Part shown: in pieces, positions 14,738 to 23,826 of the stretch
Layout of the letters: each line of letters opens with the position of its first letter
Position numbering within the stretch: the first letter of the stretch is position 1
Origin: Rhodopirellula islandica
Lineage (GTDB): Bacteria; Planctomycetota; Planctomycetia; Pirellulales; Pirellulaceae
DNA length: 64,000 bases
Assembly: GCF_001027925.1 (NCBI RefSeq)
Contig: NZ_LECT01000048.1
Location: 62,001 to 126,000, forward strand
Direction of reading: 5' to 3'
The notes under the pieces: generated by a model
Databases searched by the model: none
The model's input: only the letters and a program-made list of their open reading frames with translations
What the model was told of the DNA's origin: nothing
Position numbers and translations under genes: made by a program

Positions 14738-16198
14738 CTACGCCAAAACCTCACGAATCAGGTGACCTTCGACGTTGGTCAAGCGTCGTTCAATGCCGTT
14801 GTGCTCGAACGTCAGACGTTCATGATCGAGCCCCAACAGGTGCAGGATCGTAGCGTTCAAATCGTAGAGCGGATGGATGTCCTCGACCGCCTTCTGACCG
14901 AGCTCGTCTGTCACGCCATGACTGACACCTGGCTTCACCCCGGCACCGGTCATCCAACAAGTGAATCCGTCGGGGTTGTGATCGCGTCCTTTGGCTCCCT
15001 TTTGGAAGAACGGCATGCGTCCGAACTCGGTGCACCAGACGATCAATGTGTCTTCGAGCAGCCCACGGGCCTTCATGTCTTGAATCATCGCCGCGGTGGG
15101 TTGGTCCAAAATCTCAGCGTGCGTGTCGTATTGCTCCTTCAGTTTGCCGTGCCCGTCCCAGTTGAGGGCACCGCCACTGGCATAGGCTCCATTGAACAAC
15201 TGTACAAATCGCACGCCGCTTTCGATCAATCGACGAGCCAGGATGCAGTTTTTGGCATAGGCCGCACGGGTCGGATTGGAATCATCGTCCGCTCCGTAGC
15301 TTTTCAACACGTGAGCCGGTTCCGATGACAGGTCGGTGATCTCTGGAACGCTCAACTGCATTCGGGCGGCCAGTTCATAGCTGGCAATCCGGGCCGCCAA
15401 TTTGCTGTCCCCGGGGTGTTGTTCCAGATGGCGTTCGTTCATTCGCTTTAGCAACGAGCGACTCGCTTCGTCCGCGACGTCTGACATGCCAGGCGCACGG
15501 AGGTGCCGAATCGGTGATTTCGAACTGACCGTCGTGCCTTGGAATGCAGCCGGCAAGAATCCCGGTCCCCAGTTGTTGGAACCATTCTGCGGCACGCCTC
15601 GTGGGTCAGGAATCGCCACATAGGCGGGCAAGTTTTGGTTCTCCGTCCCCAGTGCATAGCTGGTCCATGATCCCAGGCTCGGGAACCCATCCAACTGGCT
15701 GCCGGTGGACAAGAAGTTTTCCGCTGGCCCGTGGGTGTTGGTGATGCTGGTCAGCGAGTGAATGAAGGCGATGTCATCGGTCAATTCCGCCAGGTGCGGA
15801 AGCATGTCGCTGACCCACTTCCCAGTCTGGCCGCGTTGTCGAAACTTGTATTGCGGACGCGCTAAGTCACCCGCCGGCCCTTGAAAGGTGACCGCCGGCC
15901 CACCTTCCAAGGGACGTCCATCGAGCTTGATGAGCTCCGGTTTGTAGTCCCACGTTTCGAGTTGGCTGACCCCGCCAGCACAAAAGATCACCAGCACGTT
16001 CTTGGCTTTGGCCGGAAAATGACCGGGCCGCAGCGCAAACGGACGGGCTGGGTCGATCTGCGGTTGGTTGGCCAACAATCGATCCTTGGCCAACAAGTCC
16101 AAGAGAGCGATGGATCCCAATCCGGTCGCAGCATTGCCAAGGAACCCGCGGCGATTCAGAAATTGGCGACCGCCGTTGGAGAGGTGGGGAGTGGACAT
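14738..16198 (-). CDS. Tat-exported DUF1501 protein
   Basis: This is a 486-residue protein. The ATG at 16198 was chosen over an upstream TTG at 16219. A twin-arginine signal ([20 protein letters not shown]) precedes a DUF1501 domain of the alkaline-phosphatase/sulfatase-like fold. Landmarks are [62 protein letters not shown] and [13 protein letters not shown]. Members are common in planctomycetes next to DUF1549/DUF1553 genes. Here the partner gene ends 60 bases upstream on the same strand, so the two probably form an operon. The biochemical role is not established. Confidence 0.9.
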
Positions 16199-16258
16199 GG
16201 TGGAACGGGCAACTTTCAAGGAGACAGAATGAACGAATCGCGAAGGACGTGTTGAGAC

Positions 16259-19200
16259 TCAAGGAAGAAACAAGAATTCATTGCAGTTGAACAAGGCTCG
16301 ACAAAACGTCTCCAACCCAAATTCGCGAACAACGGAAACCGCGTCTGATAACTCTTCGGCCGACGGCTTTCGGTTGAGCCCTACCCAGTAGGCTCGCTGA
16401 ACCTGTTGGCTGACATCGTCTTTCGCTTGCTCTTGCAGCACATCCGCGAATGCTTTGGCCTGTTCCATCGTGAAGGGACTGTTGAACAGATTGAGAGCTT
16501 GAATGGGGGTCGTCGACTCGATCCTTCGTGCGGCACTTTGCCCGCCGTCCGGACAATCAAATGCACCAAACACGGCATCTCGCTCACGTCGCACTTTGTG
16601 GGCATAGATCATCCGCCGCAGCCCATCCCCTTGGAACGATTCCACGGGAACAAACCCCGACAAGCCACCACGTTTGTTGAACAGGCTGAAACCGCGTCCG
16701 CCCATTTTCAGGTCGAGCTGACCATTGATCGCCAAGATTGAATCCCGGATCGCTTCCCCATCCAGGCGTCGCGACGGGTACCGCCACAACCACCGCACAT
16801 CGGCGTCTTTCGCGGCCGCCAGCTCGTTGTGCTGAGTCGATTGGCGATAGGTTGCCGACAACACGATCACGCGATGCATGTGCTTGATCGACCATTCACC
16901 TCGAATCAATTCCAAAGCGAGCCAGTCCAACAGTTCCGGGTGAGTGGGCTGCGATCCATTCCGACCGAAATCGTTTGGCGTGTCGACGAAGCCGACGCCA
17001 AAGTGCCACTGCCAAATTCGATTCGCCATCACGCGGGCCGTCAGCGGATTGTCGGGACGCGCAATCCAATCAGCCAACGCTTTCCGGCGTTCCTGTTCGG
17101 GAGTCTTAGCAGAAAGTTGCACGTCGCCCAGCGAACTCAGCACCGCGGGAACCACCGCTTCCTTGGGTTGCTCCGGATCACCGCGATTCAGCAAGTGAAT
17201 GTCATCGGGTTTGCGAAACGTTCCGGCGAACACGGACGGCCCCTTTCGGTTTTCGCGAATCTTCTTTTCGAGGTGGGCTTTCTCTTTCTGCAGGCCGCTG
17301 GCAACGCGGGTCTCATCGGGCGTCAATCCGACCAGCAGGAACTCAGCGGATGGCTTGGTACCTGCGTCCCAGACAACACGATCCCTGGAATCAGCGATCC
17401 GCCGCCAATCTTGATCGAGGGCCGTCTCGATGAGGTACTCGGTCGCCAAGCGGTCATCGAATTTCCCCTCACGATCCCGTCCCCACACGACCCGCTCGAT
17501 CTCCTGCTCGCGAGCGAACTGCAGTTCCACCCAGCCCTTCCCGTCTTCACTGGACATCCACGAACTCGCGTTGCCGTGTCGGCCGTCGTTGATAAAACGT
17601 GGGTCATGACGGTTTGCAACCAGGTTGTCACCGGATGTTTTGACCGAAGTCCCCATGCTGGCCAAGGCAATGTTTTCGCCCTCTGTGTTGAAGACTTCCA
17701 ACTCGTCCAAGCAGGGTTCCAGTCGGTTGGTTGCCAAAACAGTGAAACGCAGGCGATTGGCACGCACCGGGGTGATGCGATCGGTGTTCATCGTCGCTTG
17801 AACCGATCTGCGACGCGGTTCGAGATGAGCCAGCGTTGTCAGCTTTTCCTCCGACACTCCCGCTTCCAACGTGTAGGACGTCGCAAGTCGATCCGTCAGC
17901 TTTCCCAGACGGTCGCGACCCCAGACCACTTTCCCAATCCGTATCGGTTCCGGCAATTCAAACATCACCCACCCCGTGCCATTGGTGTCGGACATCCAAC
18001 TGCTTGGATTGCCGTACACGCCATCGTTGAGATGGATCAACTTGTGATTGCTGGACTCCACGCTTCCCGATGCGGTTGCTTGAGCGCCCAGGGAAGCCAA
18101 GGCAACGTTTCGAGGTTCAGCCTCGTCGGTGTAGATCTCGAACTCATCAATGCAGGGCGCGATCAGGCCAAGACTGGGATGCAAGTTGGAATCGTGGATC
18201 GTGAACCGAATGAACTTTGCCTCCAACGGCTCAAAGGTCTCGGTGTTCTTGCGAGCGTTGGTGGTGCGAATCGGCTCGCCATCATCAGGCCTGGGCCGAG
18301 CAATGGGAACGAACCGAGAGAGCTGCTCTTCAATTTCCGTCACCCTTTTCGCCCAGATCTCTGCCTGCTTCTTGAGAGCTTCGGATTCGGGCGTCTTCAA
18401 CTCACGATCCTTGTATTCGACCCCCGCCACGAATGCCTGCATGCTGTAGTAGTCTTTGGCCGAAATCGGATCGAACTTGTGGTCGTGACACCTCGCACAA
18501 CCGACGCTCAAGCCAAGAAACGTTTGCGAAACGTTGTTGACGATTTCATCGAGCGAGTCCTGCCGAGCCAATCGTTTCGAAGGCTCGTCGGCACCGATCT
18601 GCCCAGGCAGCAGGACGGAAGCCGTGACCAAGAATCCGGTGGCCCGATCCCGCCCCAAGGCGTCCCCCACGATCTGCTCTTTGATGAACTGATCGTAGGG
18701 CGTGTCCCGGTTCATCGATTCAATCACGTAGTCACGGTACGGCCAAGCATTCGGCCGTTCGGTATTGACCTCAAAGCCATGCGTGTCCGCGTAACGAACC
18801 ACATCCAGCCAGTGTTGAGCCCAGCGTTCACCATAGCGAGGAGATTCCAGCAATCGTTCCACCACCTCGCTGAAAGCCGCTTCCCCGTGCTCGAGGCGTC
18901 CTAGAAAATCGTTCACCTCGTTGGGCGTGGGGGGCAAACCTGTCAAGTCAAACGTCACCCGCCGCAACCAAACCACCGGGTCTGCTGGCGGCGAAGGCGA
19001 CAGTCCTTCCTGTTCCAATCGGGCCAGCACCATTCGATCGAGGGGGCCGCGTGGCCAATCAGCCTTGGATACCTGAGGCATGTCCGGCATCACGACCGGT
19101 TCGAACGACCAATGATCCATGCGATCTTCCAACACCGCCAGGTCGACTCCGTCGGGCCAGTCGGCGCCTTGTTCGACCCAATTGGTCAGGGTCGCGATTT

Positions 19201-19528
19201 CTGACGATGACAAAGGATCGCCTTCCGGTGGCATGCGAGAACTCTCGTCTTCGCTGGTCACCCACTCGATCAACGGACTGTCTTCAGGTTCGCCTTCGAT
19301 CACGAACGGCCCCCAACCATCGCCTCCCTTGAAGGCCTCTGATTTGATGTCCAGTCGCAATCCACTCCGCTGCTTTTCCTCGCCGTGGCAGGAATAGCAA
19401 TGCTGTTGCAAAATCGGTCGGACGTCATGAACAAAGTCGACCTCGTCAGCCCGCAAGAGAACGGGAACCAAACTTCCGATCAAAAGAACGAAGAGAGGCA
19501 AAACGAACAGTCCGAAAAGGTTAGGCAT
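16259..19528 (-). CDS. DUF1549/DUF1553 c-type cytochrome with two discoidin-like modules
   Basis: This is a 1089-residue exported protein; the ATG at 19528 was chosen over a GTG at 19546. The signal peptide is followed by a planctomycete cytochrome-c domain (haem site CYSCH, residues 44-48). DUF1549 follows (about 155-375), with a second CxxCH, GCARCHDHKFDP, near 343-354. Two tandem F5/8-type-C-like units come next (about 430-580 and 585-725), each with a SSWMSxxxGxGWVxxxL and VVWGRDRxGKxxDRLAT stretch. The C-terminal DUF1553 contains NPLTARVMANRIWQWHFGVG. The discoidin-like pair suggests binding to carbohydrate or surfaces. It likely forms an operon with the DUF1501 gene 60 bases downstream. 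Confidence 0.9.
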   Translation of the reverse strand: MPNLFGLFVLPLFVLLIGSLVPVLLRADEVDFVHDVRPILQQHCYSCHGEEKQRSGLRLDIKSEAFKGGDGWGPFVIEGEPEDSPLIEWVTSEDESSRMPPEGDPLSSSEIATLTNWVEQGADWPDGVDLAVLEDRMDHWSFEPVVMPDMPQVSKADWPRGPLDRMVLARLEQEGLSPSPPADPVVWLRRVTFDLTGLPPTPNEVNDFLGRLEHGEAAFSEVVERLLESPRYGERWAQHWLDVVRYADTHGFEVNTERPNAWPYRDYVIESMNRDTPYDQFIKEQIVGDALGRDRATGFLVTASVLLPGQIGADEPSKRLARQDSLDEIVNNVSQTFLGLSVGCARCHDHKFDPISAKDYYSMQAFVAGVEYKDRELKTPESEALKKQAEIWAKRVTEIEEQLSRFVPIARPRPDDGEPIRTTNARKNTETFEPLEAKFIRFTIHDSNLHPSLGLIAPCIDEFEIYTDEAEPRNVALASLGAQATASGSVESSNHKLIHLNDGVYGNPSSWMSDTNGTGWVMFELPEPIRIGKVVWGRDRLGKLTDRLATSYTLEAGVSEEKLTTLAHLEPRRRSVQATMNTDRITPVRANRLRFTVLATNRLEPCLDELEVFNTEGENIALASMGTSVKTSGDNLVANRHDPRFINDGRHGNASSWMSSEDGKGWVELQFAREQEIERVVWGRDREGKFDDRLATEYLIETALDQDWRRIADSRDRVVWDAGTKPSAEFLLVGLTPDETRVASGLQKEKAHLEKKIRENRKGPSVFAGTFRKPDDIHLLNRGDPEQPKEAVVPAVLSSLGDVQLSAKTPEQERRKALADWIARPDNPLTARVMANRIWQWHFGVGFVDTPNDFGRNGSQPTHPELLDWLALELIRGEWSIKHMHRVIVLSATYRQSTQHNELAAAKDADVRWLWRYPSRRLDGEAIRDSILAINGQLDLKMGGRGFSLFNKRGGLSGFVPVESFQGDGLRRMIYAHKVRRERDAVFGAFDCPDGGQSAARRIESTTPIQALNLFNSPFTMEQAKAFADVLQEQAKDDVSQQVQRAYWVGLNRKPSAEELSDAVSVVREFGLETFCRALFNCNEFLFLP

Positions 19529-20120
19529 GGGATTCCTACAGGACACTCTTTGCAGGGACGACTACCGGCAGGGTGTTTCCCAAACTCAAATCATTCGTCA
19601 AATGAACAGAATCAGAGTTGGAACAGCTGCGAACTGGTGGCCGAGGAGTCGTTAGGCGGGACCGCCAATTGTAGCAGAACTCGTCCAACGTATTTGCTTC
19701 AACCAGGTCGGCAGGAATGATCGGGTGCAACGATGTGAGCCGTTCGGGCGTTCGCCCCGGTTGTATGTGGGAGCAACGACGCTACCCAAAACATTCCAAA
19801 TGCTGAAAGACTCCTGCCGAACTGCTTGTCACAACTTCCCCGTGTCTCCACCAGCAAAGAACGAAAGGAGGCCAAGCCATGCGTTTTGTTGGCGTAACAC
19901 GCCGACAGACAAAGATGCGGACGATGCGGATCTTGTCTTGCGAAGCAACACCAGGCTGACACTGAATTATTGTAGACTCACGCTGCAGTCGCATCCCAAT
20001 GCTCCGACAGGAGATGGCACGCATCTTGCGCTGATTCAACGCGGTTCGGGACAACGTCATTCACGACGTTTCGCAGACGCCAACGAAGTGCCCTGACCTA
20101 GCTTCCACTTGAGACCGCTC
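19529..20120. other. Intergenic region with diverged palindromic element
   Basis: A divergent gap of about 590 bases between the DUF1553 gene and the three-gene operon. It holds copy C of the palindromic element (19701-19828) and presumably promoters for both sides. No gene was recognised. Confidence 0.45.
19701..19828 (+). repeat. Palindromic repeat element, copy C (diverged)
   Basis: This is a colinear but decayed relative of the reverse complement of copy D. The shared track is AGGTCGGCAGGAATGATCGG, then GTGAGCCGTTCGGGCGTTCG, GTGGGAGCAACGACG, CTACCCAAA and CTCCTGCCGAACTGCTTG. The terminal CTAAGCAGGT has become AACCAGGT. Confidence 0.75.
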
Positions 20121-20990
20121 ATGCCCACGATGCACCGTTTCCCGTACATCAACCGTTACGTCAACGATGTGTTTGCGAAGGAAACATCGCACTGGGACTT
20201 TGTCTTTCTTCGTCCTCTGTTGCTGGTCGCCTATTTTTTCATCCGCACGCTCCTGTTCCCGTTCAAGTTCGTTTTCCATCGGGTGCCATATGGATTTGAG
20301 GCCTACGCGATCGACAAAACGATGACGTGGGGAATGAAGCACTTGGCGAAGACGGATGCGGCAGAGCTGTTCCTGCGTCACGTGCAAATCGAGCCGATTC
20401 TCTATCGGCATGTGCTTCAACGCCAGAACGCCGATCCACCTACAGAAATCAAGAAGCTGAACGGAATCGATGGCGACTTTTCAGTTGAGAATCTGCCCAC
20501 AGCCGTCCAGAACAACATGACCATCGGTCACGATTTGTTGTCGTATGAATTGGTGGATCGCTTCGACAAACAAGCTTTCCTGGACAATCTCGATTACATC
20601 CGCAGCCAGCGACCACTCGACCATGAACAATTCAGCAAAGAGGCGTTGAACGAAAACCGAGAACACTCTTGGCAGGTTCTCGGCGCAACCAACATCGTCC
20701 TGTTGATCGTGACGACGATCACTGTCTTCGGTGACTTGAAGACCACGATGAGTGCCCTGAATTCGTTCAGTTCCGACTCCATTCTGCTGTGGTGTCTGAA
20801 GCGGATCTATGCGAGTGACCAAGAAATTCAAGTTGATTTGGATTTTTTCATGCAAGAAGTCAGCAACCGCGGGCACTACCACAGCAGTGCATTTTTTTCC
20901 AACCCGAGCCAGTACCTGTACTACCACATCGTCTTTGACGAAGTCGTGTATGACATGCTGTGCAACCGACCGCCGAGTACACAGCAGTGA
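20121..20990 (+). CDS. Membrane protein of unknown function, first gene of KAS III-like operon
   Basis: This is a 289-residue protein; the ATG at 20121 was taken over an upstream TTG at 20109. A strongly hydrophobic segment with aromatic and basic residues lies near the N-terminus (RPLLLVAYFFIRTLLFPFKF, about 28-47). A second lies near 190-208 (LGATNIVLLIVTTITVF). The rest is soluble and His/Asp/Glu-rich (LFLRHVQIEPILYRHVL; FDKQAFLDNLDYI; C-terminal YHSSAFFSNPSQYLYYHIVF). I recall a DUF6999 label for proteins of this kind but cannot confirm it. The stop overlaps a possible GTG start of the ketoacyl-synthase-like gene (GTGA at 20987-20990), pointing to joint translation and a shared pathway. 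Confidence 0.75.
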   Translation: MPTMHRFPYINRYVNDVFAKETSHWDFVFLRPLLLVAYFFIRTLLFPFKFVFHRVPYGFEAYAIDKTMTWGMKHLAKTDAAELFLRHVQIEPILYRHVLQRQNADPPTEIKKLNGIDGDFSVENLPTAVQNNMTIGHDLLSYELVDRFDKQAFLDNLDYIRSQRPLDHEQFSKEALNENREHSWQVLGATNIVLLIVTTITVFGDLKTTMSALNSFSSDSILLWCLKRIYASDQEIQVDLDFFMQEVSNRGHYHSSAFFSNPSQYLYYHIVFDEVVYDMLCNRPPSTQQ

Positions 20991-22117
20991 ATTCGTCGCC
21001 CCCCTCGCGAAGCAGCCATCATCCTGTCGCCTCCTGTTTCATCACGCGGACCGGATCGTTCTTGCCCGGCCCACGGGTGACAAATGAACGCCTGACCGAA
21101 TTTCTTGGGAATCTCCCCGGCGAAGAGGAAGTGATGCGGCAGGTGCTGCGTATGAACGGGATTGTCGGCCGACACTACGCTCAGGACACGAACCAAATAC
21201 CCACGCACGATGTTTATGAACTGGGAACGCTCGCAGCCATGCATTGCTTGGATTCCAGCCCCCTCCAAGTCTCACCCAGCTACCTTGCCGCCGGCACAAC
21301 CCACTGCCCGCTGTCAGGTCCTGGCCTGAGTTCCATCGTCCATCGTCAATTGGCAGATCGAGGCTATCTCAATCGGTCTGTCGAAATCAGTTCCCATTCA
21401 GGCATTTGCACGTCGTCTTCGGCCGCCTTCGTGGGGGCGGTGCGAGCCGTGAAGTCCGGCGACCATCATGCGGCCCTCTGTCTGGGAACAGAACACGCAT
21501 CTGAAATTCTTAAGTCGACCAAAATCCAGCCGATCGATGACCGGAACGCTCACGTCGATCTCCGGAACAGCCAGTGGTTCATGGCAGTGTTTTTGAGGTT
21601 CATGTTGTCCGACGGCGCGGGGGCGTTCTTGATTGAGAACGAACCTTCAGACACGCGTCCATCGTTGCGGGTGAACTGGACGCATAGCGTTTCCTTCGCG
21701 CATGAGGCCCCACTGTGCATGAAGTTGGAAAACGAAACGGGATTGCTCACCCAAGATGTGAAAATCCTGTCGCGTCACATGTTTGAACTCGGTGGTCGCG
21801 CGTTTTCGCAATCGCTCCAACAGCACGGGGAATCTCTCGATGAATACGCGATGATTCTGCCGCACATGTCCTCGTTCTTCTTCCGACGCAAAATGGAACG
21901 CGTGATTGCCAGTCACTGCAGCGACCAATCTGCACCGGTGCCCTACTGGACCAACCTCGCGGACGTTGGCAACACCGGTGCCGCCAGCATCTACGTGATG
22001 CTCGATCACCACTTGCGTTCAGAAACACCCCAGGCCGGTGAGCGTTTGCTGTTGTTCATTCCCGAATCGGGGCAATTCAATTTCGTCCTGGTGAGCTTGA
22101 CTGTGGTGATGCCATGA
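20960..22117 (+). CDS. Beta-ketoacyl-ACP synthase III-like condensing enzyme
   Basis: This is a 385-residue thiolase-fold protein. A complete Cys-His-Asn triad of the FabH type is visible: Cys150 in HSGICTSSSAA, His302 in ILPHMSSFF and Asn338 in DVGNTGAAS. LSDGAGAFLIENE is also typical. The most upstream start is GTG 20960; a GTG at 20987 overlapping the previous stop is an attractive alternative, since the fold begins only near residue 23. It is diverged from housekeeping FabH in the N-terminal half, has no adjacent fatty-acid genes and sits between a membrane protein and a monooxygenase. A specialised acyl condensation or acyl transfer is therefore likelier than routine fatty-acid initiation. 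The ATGA overlap with the next gene supports coupling. Confidence 0.82.
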   Translation: MQPTAEYTAVNSSPPSRSSHHPVASCFITRTGSFLPGPRVTNERLTEFLGNLPGEEEVMRQVLRMNGIVGRHYAQDTNQIPTHDVYELGTLAAMHCLDSSPLQVSPSYLAAGTTHCPLSGPGLSSIVHRQLADRGYLNRSVEISSHSGICTSSSAAFVGAVRAVKSGDHHAALCLGTEHASEILKSTKIQPIDDRNAHVDLRNSQWFMAVFLRFMLSDGAGAFLIENEPSDTRPSLRVNWTHSVSFAHEAPLCMKLENETGLLTQDVKILSRHMFELGGRAFSQSLQQHGESLDEYAMILPHMSSFFFRRKMERVIASHCSDQSAPVPYWTNLADVGNTGAASIYVMLDHHLRSETPQAGERLLLFIPESGQFNFVLVSLTVVMP

Positions 22118-23826
22118 GCGAACACGCGTCGCCTGTACCGGTCGGTTCGCAGGTTGCCGTTCCGAAACCGAAACCGCGTTTGGCAATCGTCGGTTGCGGG
22201 AGCAGCGGATTGGTGACGCTGAAGAATGCACGCGATCAATTGCCTGATTGGGAGATCGTGTGCTTCGAAAAATCAGATCGAATCACGGGTTGTTGGGGCA
22301 ATCCTTCTCCGGGATTTGTTTCGACCTCGACCAAGTACACGACGCAGTTTGCGTGTTTTCCCTTGTTCGATGACAGTGTCTCAGGTGACGGCGTGTCCGA
22401 TTTCCGTGACTTCTTTTGCGACGGGGAGTACGGCGACTACCTGGAATCCTTCGCGACCGCGTTCTCACTTCATTCGTCCATTCGGTGCAAAACGCGGGTC
22501 GACCAAATCCGCTACGTCGAAGCGTCGAATGAGTGGCAACTGAAAACCCGCGGCCTCGAACCCGACGACAGCCCCCAACGAATCGAGATCTTTCAGGCGG
22601 TGATCATCTGCACGGGATTGGCAGCCCGAGCACGGACCATTCCGCCGTCCCGTGCCCAGTCGGCCAACCAAGCCAGCCTCCGTTCCGAAACACCGCGATT
22701 GCTAAACAATGCCCAACAGATCGATGAGATCGAGAATCAAACCGTCGTCGTGATTGGCGGTGGAGAATCAGCGGTTGATTTCGCCGATCGATTGTCTCGC
22801 CCCGAGCGGAACAATCGAGTCTTCCTCTCGCTGAAGTCGGGCATTCGGGTGAGCCCCCGCTACCACCCCATCCACGGCGTCCCTTCGGACTTTTTGCGCA
22901 ATCGCCTGATGCTTTCAATCCATCCCGACCTACGCAATTGGATCGGGGAACGATTCGTGAAGGCACGCATTCGATACGCAGATGCATTTCGTCGATGGTT
23001 CCCGACCCACAAGGCCTCGCCATCCCAACAAGATGAGCCACAAAGCGATCGCGAGCGGAAGAAAAACGATTGGGCGATGCGACTGACGCGGGCCGCCAAG
23101 GATGACTTGTTCAATATGTTTCATAACAAGAGCGACCGCTTTCTCGACTCGGTCGCCGATGATCGCATTTGCATCGTTGGCCCCGCAGCAGATTCACTGG
23201 ACACCTACTTCGATTTCGAACGCGAAAGGACACGGAAACTTTGTCCGGATGTCGTCGTCCCCGCGATCGGATACGAATCCTGCTTGGAAGCCCTCTCGGA
23301 TTCAGAGATCCAACTGAGCGACTTCTACCTTGGCTGTTGCCATCGCAGATTCCGGAACCTCTTTTTGGTTGGGTTTGCCCGCCCCATCATCGGCAACGTC
23401 CCCACGATCAGCGAGATGCAAGCGAAGTTCGCTGTCAAACTGCTCTCAGGAGATTGTTCCCTGCCAATTGATTTTGCACGTCAGCATGATCGAGACACAA
23501 GCAATCAGCGGATGCGTTTTGGCAAACTCAATCTGGCAGCAATCTATCCCGTCGAGATGATTCCTTATTGTGACCGGCTTTCAAGACTCATGGGCGACTA
23601 CCCCAGCCTCAAACGGTGTGGTTCACTCGGGGCCTGGTTCCGGGTCCAGTTGGCCACCTCAACCACGATGCACTATGAGCTTGATGATCGCTCCACTCGA
23701 TCACGTTTGAGCCAGGCAAAGGTGTTGATGCCACCTCTCTTCATCGTCCTGTTGCTGATGCTCAAGCCAGTTGATTGGTCGTATCGTTTGCTGACGTGGC
23801 GAAGAAGAGCTCCAAAGAAAGTTTGA
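22114..23826 (+). CDS. Membrane-anchored flavin-containing monooxygenase-like oxidoreductase
   Basis: This is a 570-residue protein. Its ATG overlaps the stop of the condensing-enzyme gene (ATGA, 22114-22117). An FAD-binding GxGxxG (LAIVGCGSSGLVTL, about 23-36) and an NAD(P)-binding VVVIGGGESAVDFADRL (about 208-224) give the two-dinucleotide architecture of FMO/Baeyer-Villiger-type enzymes. ACFPLFDD and GNVPTISEMQAKFAVKLLSG fit the FMO fold. The canonical FMO FxGxxxHxxxY motif is not evident. A C-terminal hydrophobic helix (MPPLFIVLLLMLKPVDW) and a basic tail suggest a tail anchor. The expected role is oxygenation of the product of the neighbouring condensing enzyme; the substrate is unknown. 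Confidence 0.8.
   Translation: MSEHASPVPVGSQVAVPKPKPRLAIVGCGSSGLVTLKNARDQLPDWEIVCFEKSDRITGCWGNPSPGFVSTSTKYTTQFACFPLFDDSVSGDGVSDFRDFFCDGEYGDYLESFATAFSLHSSIRCKTRVDQIRYVEASNEWQLKTRGLEPDDSPQRIEIFQAVIICTGLAARARTIPPSRAQSANQASLRSETPRLLNNAQQIDEIENQTVVVIGGGESAVDFADRLSRPERNNRVFLSLKSGIRVSPRYHPIHGVPSDFLRNRLMLSIHPDLRNWIGERFVKARIRYADAFRRWFPTHKASPSQQDEPQSDRERKKNDWAMRLTRAAKDDLFNMFHNKSDRFLDSVADDRICIVGPAADSLDTYFDFERERTRKLCPDVVVPAIGYESCLEALSDSEIQLSDFYLGCCHRRFRNLFLVGFARPIIGNVPTISEMQAKFAVKLLSGDCSLPIDFARQHDRDTSNQRMRFGKLNLAAIYPVEMIPYCDRLSRLMGDYPSLKRCGSLGAWFRVQLATSTTMHYELDDRSTRSRLSQAKVLMPPLFIVLLLMLKPVDWSYRLLTWRRRAPKKV

Follow-up and report, generated by a model that had tools for sequence, protein, structure and literature searches.

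In the 64,000-nucleotide stretch of Rhodopirellula islandica DNA analysed here (the window), three genes in a row encode a divergent member of the family DUF6999, a β-ketosynthase resembling StlD and DarB, and a flavoprotein resembling flavin-containing monooxygenases (FMOs) (Table 1). Both joints between them are overlapping, and the two overlaps given by the initial annotation are indeed visible in the sequence. The first gene starts with ATG, with TTG 20109 and ATG 20130 as alternatives; the second starts with GTG 20987, which overlaps the TGA of the first and is the sole in-frame ATG, GTG, TTG or CTG in the 20 codons tested from that position, a further GTG lying upstream at 20960. Overlapping joints are common per se, and it is the conservation of the trio that exceeds chance. 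As had also been noted, no acyl carrier, ketoreductase or fatty-acid gene lies nearby, at least among the ten other window genes (11.5-32.4 kb) scanned against Pfam, one of which received no family assignment. The GC content of the trio (0.546 vs 0.562 for the window, with the DUF6999 gene lower at 0.507) and its GC3 (0.63-0.68 vs 0.66-0.76 in eight neighbouring genes) give no strong compositional sign of recent foreign DNA.

Table 1. Genes and overlaps of the trio, in window coordinates.
Feature	Coordinates	Strand	Basis
Gene 1, DUF6999 (PF22523) divergent member, 289 aa	20121..20990	+	Pfam, alignment, AF2 model
Gene 2, StlD/DarB-like beta-ketosynthase, 376 aa	20987..22117	+	NF005293, PDB, AF2/Foldseek
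Gene 3, FMO-like flavoprotein, 570 aa	22114..23826	+	PF00743, alignment
GTGA overlap, gene 1 stop / gene 2 start	20987..20990	+	Sequence
ATGA overlap, gene 2 stop / gene 3 start	22114..22117	+	Sequence

The three genes constitute one real conserved unit, with the same gene order across several phyla. Among 98 related genomes, which are not independent observations, the ketosynthase had any match in 18 and close orthologues (E < 1e-100) in 8, and the flavoprotein (E < 1e-60; up to 14 candidates scored per genome) was confined to those same 8; DUF6999 occurred in the same 8 and in G014, where it lies downstream of a ketosynthase-iron-oxidase fusion. In a sample of the phylum, 4 of 294 genomes carried the ketosynthase and all 4 carried DUF6999 (2 by the PF22523 profile alone, the rest via a purpose-made alignment), and the two of these 4 that were new had the three genes adjacent. 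In a second collection, of genome contigs, a single-protein query gave no relative; a further scan gave 191 ketosynthase relatives, and among the best 80 of these 191 loci 37 were close (48-61% identity), with labels from seven phyla (the distance comparison covers 32 of the 37). DUF6999 adjoins the ketosynthase in 36 of these 37 and so does the flavoprotein, both misses being contig ends, so that every neighbour is present for which the contig has room; the flavoprotein was found at none of the other 43 of the best 80, within the DNA available. The order DUF6999-ketosynthase-flavoprotein on a single strand was kept in 41 of 46 rows (the others being two of other kinds, two contig ends and one rearrangement), and an equal four-base overlap of the ATG of the flavoprotein gene with the TGA of the ketosynthase gene was scored in 19 of the 46, a count in which the locus pairs L027/L036 and L032/L048 are probably the same contigs entered twice. 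The co-occurrence in the same 8 of 98 genomes, together with the conserved neighbours and order, leads us to reject a chance gene neighbourhood. The proposal that the trio forms one unit was borne out in planctomycetes and in other phyla, and the finding that would have spoken against it, that the genes are rarely neighbours in relatives, did not materialize.

By sequence and by predicted fold, the ketosynthase groups with StlD and DarB rather than with FabH or OleA. Its condensing triad, Cys141, His293 and Asn329 counted from GTG 20987 (the residues earlier numbered 150, 302 and 338 from 20960), does not vary among all the 31 ketosynthases that were aligned (24 of the 37 close loci, 6 of the 43 others and the window), and neither does FLRFMLSDG, which in StlD reads FLRWMLSDG; this motif, FLR(F/W)MLSDG, was picked from the alignments of this analysis. 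StlD (5gk0) is the best sequence match in the PDB (E 6e-39), and with the AF2 model (mean pLDDT 93.9) StlD chains took ranks 1-6 in Foldseek (top E 9e-38, TM 0.85), ahead of the best FabH (E 6e-23) and OleA (E 1e-21). The initial annotation had called for a comparison of the pocket with FabH, OleA and PqsD: the fold search ranks StlD above the former two, and PqsD did not appear in the list of 50 fold matches. The enzyme is unusual, as had been supposed, but StlD/DarB-like rather than a FabH- or OleA-like acyl condenser. It matches the StlD/DarB profile NF005293 (E 4e-73), although at 246.6 bits it falls below the curated cut-off of 450, which a Flavobacterium DarB (560) and the ketosynthase of the planctomycete G044 (485) exceed. 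Following Cys244-Met245, the 25 trio rows have a loop of 10 residues, or 12 in a single row, vs 31-32 in the 6 others. In view of the lower score and the shorter loop, pocket and reaction may differ from those of StlD and DarB. In the ketosynthase tree, from which the incomplete L072 was omitted and in which 'without partner' labels may err on short contigs, the trio-type enzymes fill one side of a branch with 100/100 support, a group of their own.

The flavoprotein matches PF00743 (79.5 bits vs a cut-off of 22), and its best PDB matches are ancestral FMOs. The two dinucleotide-binding motifs and the C-terminal hydrophobic helix that had been described for it are general: GxGS(S/A)G and GGGES(A/G) (GCGSSG 27-32 and GGGESA 215-220 in the window) and the C-terminal hydrophobic stretch occur in all 21 aligned flavoproteins (20 of 36 loci and the window). 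Class-B FMOs and Baeyer-Villiger monooxygenases carry the fingerprint FxGxxxHxxx(Y/F/W). While the FMO aligned with the flavoprotein has FKGQYFHSRQY at that position, the fingerprint is present in none of the 21 trio proteins, which share the FAD and NAD(P)H motifs with FMOs but have in addition the conserved C-terminal stretch. The designation monooxygenase therefore goes too far, and oxygenation by this protein is something that we infer.

The protein of the first gene, previously taken as unrecognised, belongs to Pfam DUF6999 (PF22523; 35.4 bits vs a cut-off of 27, which five copies from six relatives' genomes exceed and one does not). The family is known, but little studied as far as our literature search reached, which found no study of it. 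A control genome, that of Caulobacter vibrioides, also has a match to DUF6999. The two hydrophobic segments described earlier lie near residues 25-50 and 186-204 and, like the C-terminal stretch of the flavoprotein, fit the suggested membrane association of the two outer proteins. Across 34 aligned members (29 of 36 bearing loci, the window and 4 of the iron-oxidase type), R86, H87, H137, D138, D219 and E274 are invariant and E91, H252 and H269 nearly so. The AF2 model (mean pLDDT 84) is all-alpha, and a known fold was unsupported by Foldseek against the PDB (best E 1.1) or viral models (0.75) and by a sequence profile against the PDB (0.38).

DUF6999 is also found beside StlD/DarB-like ketosynthases in sister units (Paenibacillus, gammaproteobacteria and one planctomycete), where a haem-oxygenase-like iron oxidase (PF14518), sometimes fused to the ketosynthase, replaces the flavoprotein. 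PF14518, barely above its cut-off in the three proteins tested, was present at 11 of the 43 non-trio loci among the best 80 of 191, and the same 11 carry DUF6999, whose copies in these units share only 14-19% identity with that of the window. Our literature search found no description of a unit combining a ketosynthase, this iron oxidase and DUF6999. A P450 adjoins the trio in 15 of the 37 close loci (again among the best 80 of 191) and close P450 orthologues occur in 4 of the 8 trio genomes, the window's genome giving no match at E < 1e-40; it is thus not an obligatory fourth member. Rubripirellula obstinata CECT 8602, a cultured species, has the trio together with a P450 (locus L043).

DarB and StlD are described as welding two acyl chains, a β-ketoacyl and a 2-enoyl chain, into a 1,3-cyclohexanedione (PMC5515871, PMC3992019). 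Heterologous expression of darB and darA was reported to yield dialkylresorcinol (PMC3992019), so the absence of local acyl-carrier and fatty-acid genes is no anomaly. The trio shares the ketosynthase superfamily with the DarA/DarB pathway of flexirubin and arcuflavin clusters, and DarA, which is flavodoxin-like, has in two sequences a hydrophobic C-terminal stretch like that of the trio's flavoprotein. The window's ketosynthase is, however, only 30-35% identical to those of that pathway and its loop about 21 residues shorter; to StlD, the isopropylstilbene ketosynthase of Photorhabdus, with which it shares the triad, it is 30% identical over the fold alignment, and the partner genes differ. 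The trio has DUF6999 and the FMO-like protein but no DarA match: one planctomycete DarA query matched none of the 8 trio genomes and only 2 of the 98, its own (G044) and, weakly, G059, and since the sole strong match to this single query was in its own genome, a distant aromatase could be missed.

Given its placement, the ketosynthase is likely to link two acyl chains so that a six-membered dione ring forms. We tentatively favour the reading that the trio is a small DarB-like biosynthetic cassette, in which a ring-forming ketosynthase is accompanied by an anchored flavoprotein and DUF6999 in DarA's place; its product would probably be an undescribed ring-shaped lipid. The ketosynthase would take β-ketoacyl and 2-enoyl thioesters from primary metabolism, as DarB and StlD do, and condense the pair to a 2,5-dialkylcyclohexane-1,3-dione that initially bears a carboxyl group. 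With its C-terminal anchor, the FAD/NAD(P)H flavoprotein, in the position that DarA holds in dialkylresorcinol pathways, might then oxidise the ring at the membrane by aromatisation or hydroxylation. DUF6999, a helical protein that is putatively associated with the membrane and whose His/Asp/Glu cluster is conserved, would perform a step common to the trio and the iron-oxidase units, perhaps as a catalyst of ring processing or else by keeping the enzyme and its greasy substrate at the membrane, and in some lineages the P450 may further decorate the product.

It seems rather unlikely that the ketosynthase instead makes a linear β-keto lipid or ketone, in the manner of KAS III or OleA, which the flavoprotein then oxygenates, for example to a Baeyer-Villiger ester. 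A thiolase-fold enzyme with a full triad beside an FMO-like partner would suit such a route, and the shorter loop leaves room for other chemistry, but in the fold search the E-value of StlD is some 15 orders of magnitude better than those of FabH and OleA, and the class-B fingerprint is missing throughout. That missing fingerprint would also suit a flavoprotein acting as reductase or dehydrogenase in a different step (for instance desaturating a chain or passing electrons to the P450 found beside some trios), with the ketosynthase making the ring and DUF6999 only a scaffold. We consider this improbable: the patchy occurrence of the P450 and the lack of a match at E < 1e-40 in the window's genome make P450 service unlikely as a core role, and charged residues conserved across 34 divergent DUF6999 members look, in our judgement, more like an active site than a scaffold.

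That the ketosynthase is simply a spare KAS III of the ordinary kind, beside genes unrelated to it in function, is very improbable indeed. The Pfam KAS III C-terminal domain matches only at 23.5 bits, under its cut-off of 26.6, and the FabH profiles score far below theirs (27.2 vs 292.1 bits for TIGR00747, 48 vs 249 for NF006829), whereas other proteins of the window's genome are of FabH type, scoring 408 and 261 bits (cut-off 249); the best fold match to StlD and the strict co-occurrence of the trio likewise argue against it. Returning to the DarB-like cassette, a bolder form of it, which we regard as unlikely, is that the trio represents a third, undescribed way of finishing DarB-type rings: DUF6999 would be a new membrane metalloenzyme fold that acts on the cyclohexanedione as it forms. 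Either the flavoprotein or the iron protein could serve as its oxidant, and the outcome would be a class of membrane redox lipids or signals common to planctomycetes, verrucomicrobia, chloroflexi and others.

DarB-type products are described as signals in Photorhabdus (PMC4414361), as contributing to the antagonism of Pseudomonas towards fungi (PMC6403133) and as a component of flexirubin pigments (PMC3992019). Given these roles, a DarA-free branch makes further uses of this ring chemistry testable. The trio ties DUF6999, a family without a recognised fold, to a concrete pathway, and, being well defined, minimal and conserved over a wide range, it is a target in the search for a new lipid or signal among phyla of little-known chemistry.

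The three genes of the trio (DUF6999, a ketosynthase and a flavoprotein) form a real unit in the 7.4 Mb genome (55 contigs) of Rhodopirellula islandica, where they lie head to tail with overlaps. The initial annotation had described the overlapping joints, a Cys-His-Asn triad in gene 2 and two dinucleotide-binding motifs in gene 3, and all of these were found in the sequence. Pfam assigned gene 1 to DUF6999 (PF22523; 35.4 bits, cut-off 27) and gene 3 to an FMO-like family (79.5 bits, cut-off 22), while gene 2 scored under the cut-offs of the general thiolase-fold Pfam families. In NCBIfam, gene 2 grouped with StlD/DarB ketosynthases (E 4e-73), yet its 246.6 bits fall short of the cut-off, which is 450. 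Upstream, on the opposite strand, is a DUF1501 and PSD1/PSCyt cytochrome-type gene pair; such genes are frequent in planctomycetes, and members of the two clusters occurred near the trio in 7/45 and 9/45 loci, respectively.

Coordinates of the trio and of the other loci discussed
Feature	Location	Coordinates	Strand
Trio	window	20121-23826	+
Gene 1, DUF6999	window	20121-20990	+
Gene 2, ketosynthase	window	20987-22117	+
Gene 3, flavoprotein	window	22114-23826	+
DUF1501 and PSD1/PSCyt pair	window	14738-19546	opposite to trio
DpgA-like enzyme	L004 (window's genome)	G000:C36:69042-72308	
Flavoprotein match in two pieces	G276	L144:6218-8763	
Flavoprotein match in two pieces	G001	L029:7628-9388	
Flavoprotein remnant	G005	L142:16083-16298	
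P450 beside trio (example)	L043	L043:12965-14338	
Ketosynthase-iron-oxidase fusion, DUF6999 and histidine-rich membrane protein	G014	L033:7079-10437	
DarA cluster	G044	L034:3331-13888	

Of 98 related genomes, 18 had some ketosynthase match and 8 had a close orthologue (E < 1e-100); the flavoprotein (E < 1e-60) was found in the same 8, and DUF6999 in those 8 and one more, G014. In the phylum sample the ketosynthase (E < 1e-60) was present in only 4 of 294 genomes, and the trio is therefore a patchy, accessory unit. DUF6999 was called in two of these four by the Pfam model and in all four by the alignment built here; the two genomes lacking the Pfam call have all three genes adjacent, and in one of them the flavoprotein match is split in two. 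In G276 the flavoprotein match consists of two pieces about 860 bases apart, and this copy may be interrupted; that of G001 is also in two pieces, its reference contains a stop, and the copy may be broken or misassembled.

The initial annotation had also proposed looking for co-occurrence across planctomycetes and other phyla. From a second collection, the best 80 of 191 confirmed relatives were retained as ketosynthase loci. These fall into two clean sets: a close one of 37 loci (48-61% identity) and a distant one of 43 (30-35%). The partners are nearly always adjacent in the close set, DUF6999 and the flavoprotein each being present in 36/37 loci with both gaps at contig ends. Its records are labelled with seven phyla (Planctomycetota, Verrucomicrobiota, Chloroflexota, Acidobacteriota, Deinococcota, Bdellovibrionota and Rhodothermota; one merely 'bacterium'), but 36/37 are metagenome-assembled, the exception being Rubripirellula obstinata, and binning errors are possible for single-record phyla. 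Gene order and strand were alike in 41/46 rows, the remainder being explained, and protein distances among the three genes correlated at 0.89 to 0.95 (32 loci).

Within the window's genus, a close ketosynthase orthologue occurred in 3/13 genomes. The flanking methyltransferase and DUF4349 genes are directly adjacent in G004, with the intervening block absent. G005 retains an 85-residue remnant of the flavoprotein C-terminus, surrounded by stops in all frames and adjoining the same planctomycete cytochrome-type neighbour, with no match to the ketosynthase or DUF6999 at that site; we read the absence of the trio from this genome as a loss. A P450 gene adjoins the trio on either strand in 15/37 loci, all labelled planctomycete or verrucomicrobial, which suggests an extra oxidation in some lineages, but close P450 orthologues occur in only 4/8 trio genomes, the window's genome not among them.

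StlD was the best PDB match to the ketosynthase by sequence (E 6e-39). StlD chains also led the fold search with its AlphaFold2 model (mean pLDDT 93.9; E 9e-38, TM 0.85), followed by FabH (6e-23) and OleA (1e-21); this ranking covers the best 50 of 1066 significant hits. In a maximum-likelihood phylogeny, rooted for drawing only, 80 ketosynthases were compared, which placed the 37 trio-type rows on one side of a branch with support of 100/100, separate from the iron-oxidase-linked and DarA-linked types. Following Cys244-Met245, all 25 trio rows share a short loop of 10 residues (12 in one row), versus 31-32 in six others. StlD and DarB join a beta-ketoacyl chain to an unsaturated acyl chain, giving 2,5-dialkylcyclohexane-1,3-diones (PMC5515871), and heterologous darB and darA yielded a dialkylresorcinol (PMC3992019), so the lack of local carrier or fatty-acid genes is expected. 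Phosphopantetheine sites were matched 11 times in the window's genome, never on the trio's contig, and FabH-type proteins are encoded separately. The genome also encodes a DpgA-like enzyme of the thiolase fold, which scored 160.8 bits (cut-off 425).

The ring aromatase DarA had no match in the 8 trio genomes when a single planctomycete DarA, from G044, was the query. That protein is 29% identical to Flavobacterium DarA, and its neighbours are a DarB-like ketosynthase, a P450 and a polyketide synthase; ligase-like and desaturase-like genes were recognised there by eye, and the cluster is likely a dialkylresorcinol pathway. DarA matched flavodoxin models weakly, under cut-offs. In the trio flavoprotein, the class-B fingerprint was absent in 21/21 aligned sequences, with both dinucleotide motifs and the C-terminal hydrophobic stretch kept.

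The 43 distant loci carry DarA in 15 cases, a haem-oxygenase-like iron-oxidase domain in 11 and neither in 17. Exactly those 11 constitute a second setting of DUF6999 beside StlD/DarB-like ketosynthases; in three checked (L098, L078, L033), PF14518 scored 29.4-32.8 bits against a cut-off of 28.9. This setting recurs on a Pseudoalteromonas plasmid, where the genes are annotated as a ketosynthase, an iron-containing redox enzyme and a hypothetical protein. G014, which belongs to the same planctomycete family as the window's genome, has a ketosynthase-iron-oxidase fusion followed by DUF6999. Next in G014 is a 186-aa histidine-rich membrane protein, by eye like a 188-aa protein that adjoins the L078 unit; neither matched a Pfam family. 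DUF6999 itself matched no known fold. R86, H87, H137, D138, D219 and E274 are invariant in its alignment (34 members), and the predicted model places them on four separate helices.

DUF6999 is named in no paper found in the open-access literature, and a report elsewhere is possible. Searches of that literature on the iron-oxidase combination and on planctomycete cyclohexanediones turned up no description of the unit. DarB and StlD go unmentioned in a study of type III PKS clusters from planctomycetes (PMC10896814), and one 'resorcinol' cluster is reported for the planctomycete A. helgolandensis Q31a in a paper of 2026 (PMC13241502). From family and fold, we infer that the trio ketosynthase would form a ring; the oxidation step and the role of DUF6999 are more tentative. 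The simplest account is that the trio is a DarB-like cassette without DarA, in which the anchored flavoprotein and DUF6999 would complete the ring made by the ketosynthase.
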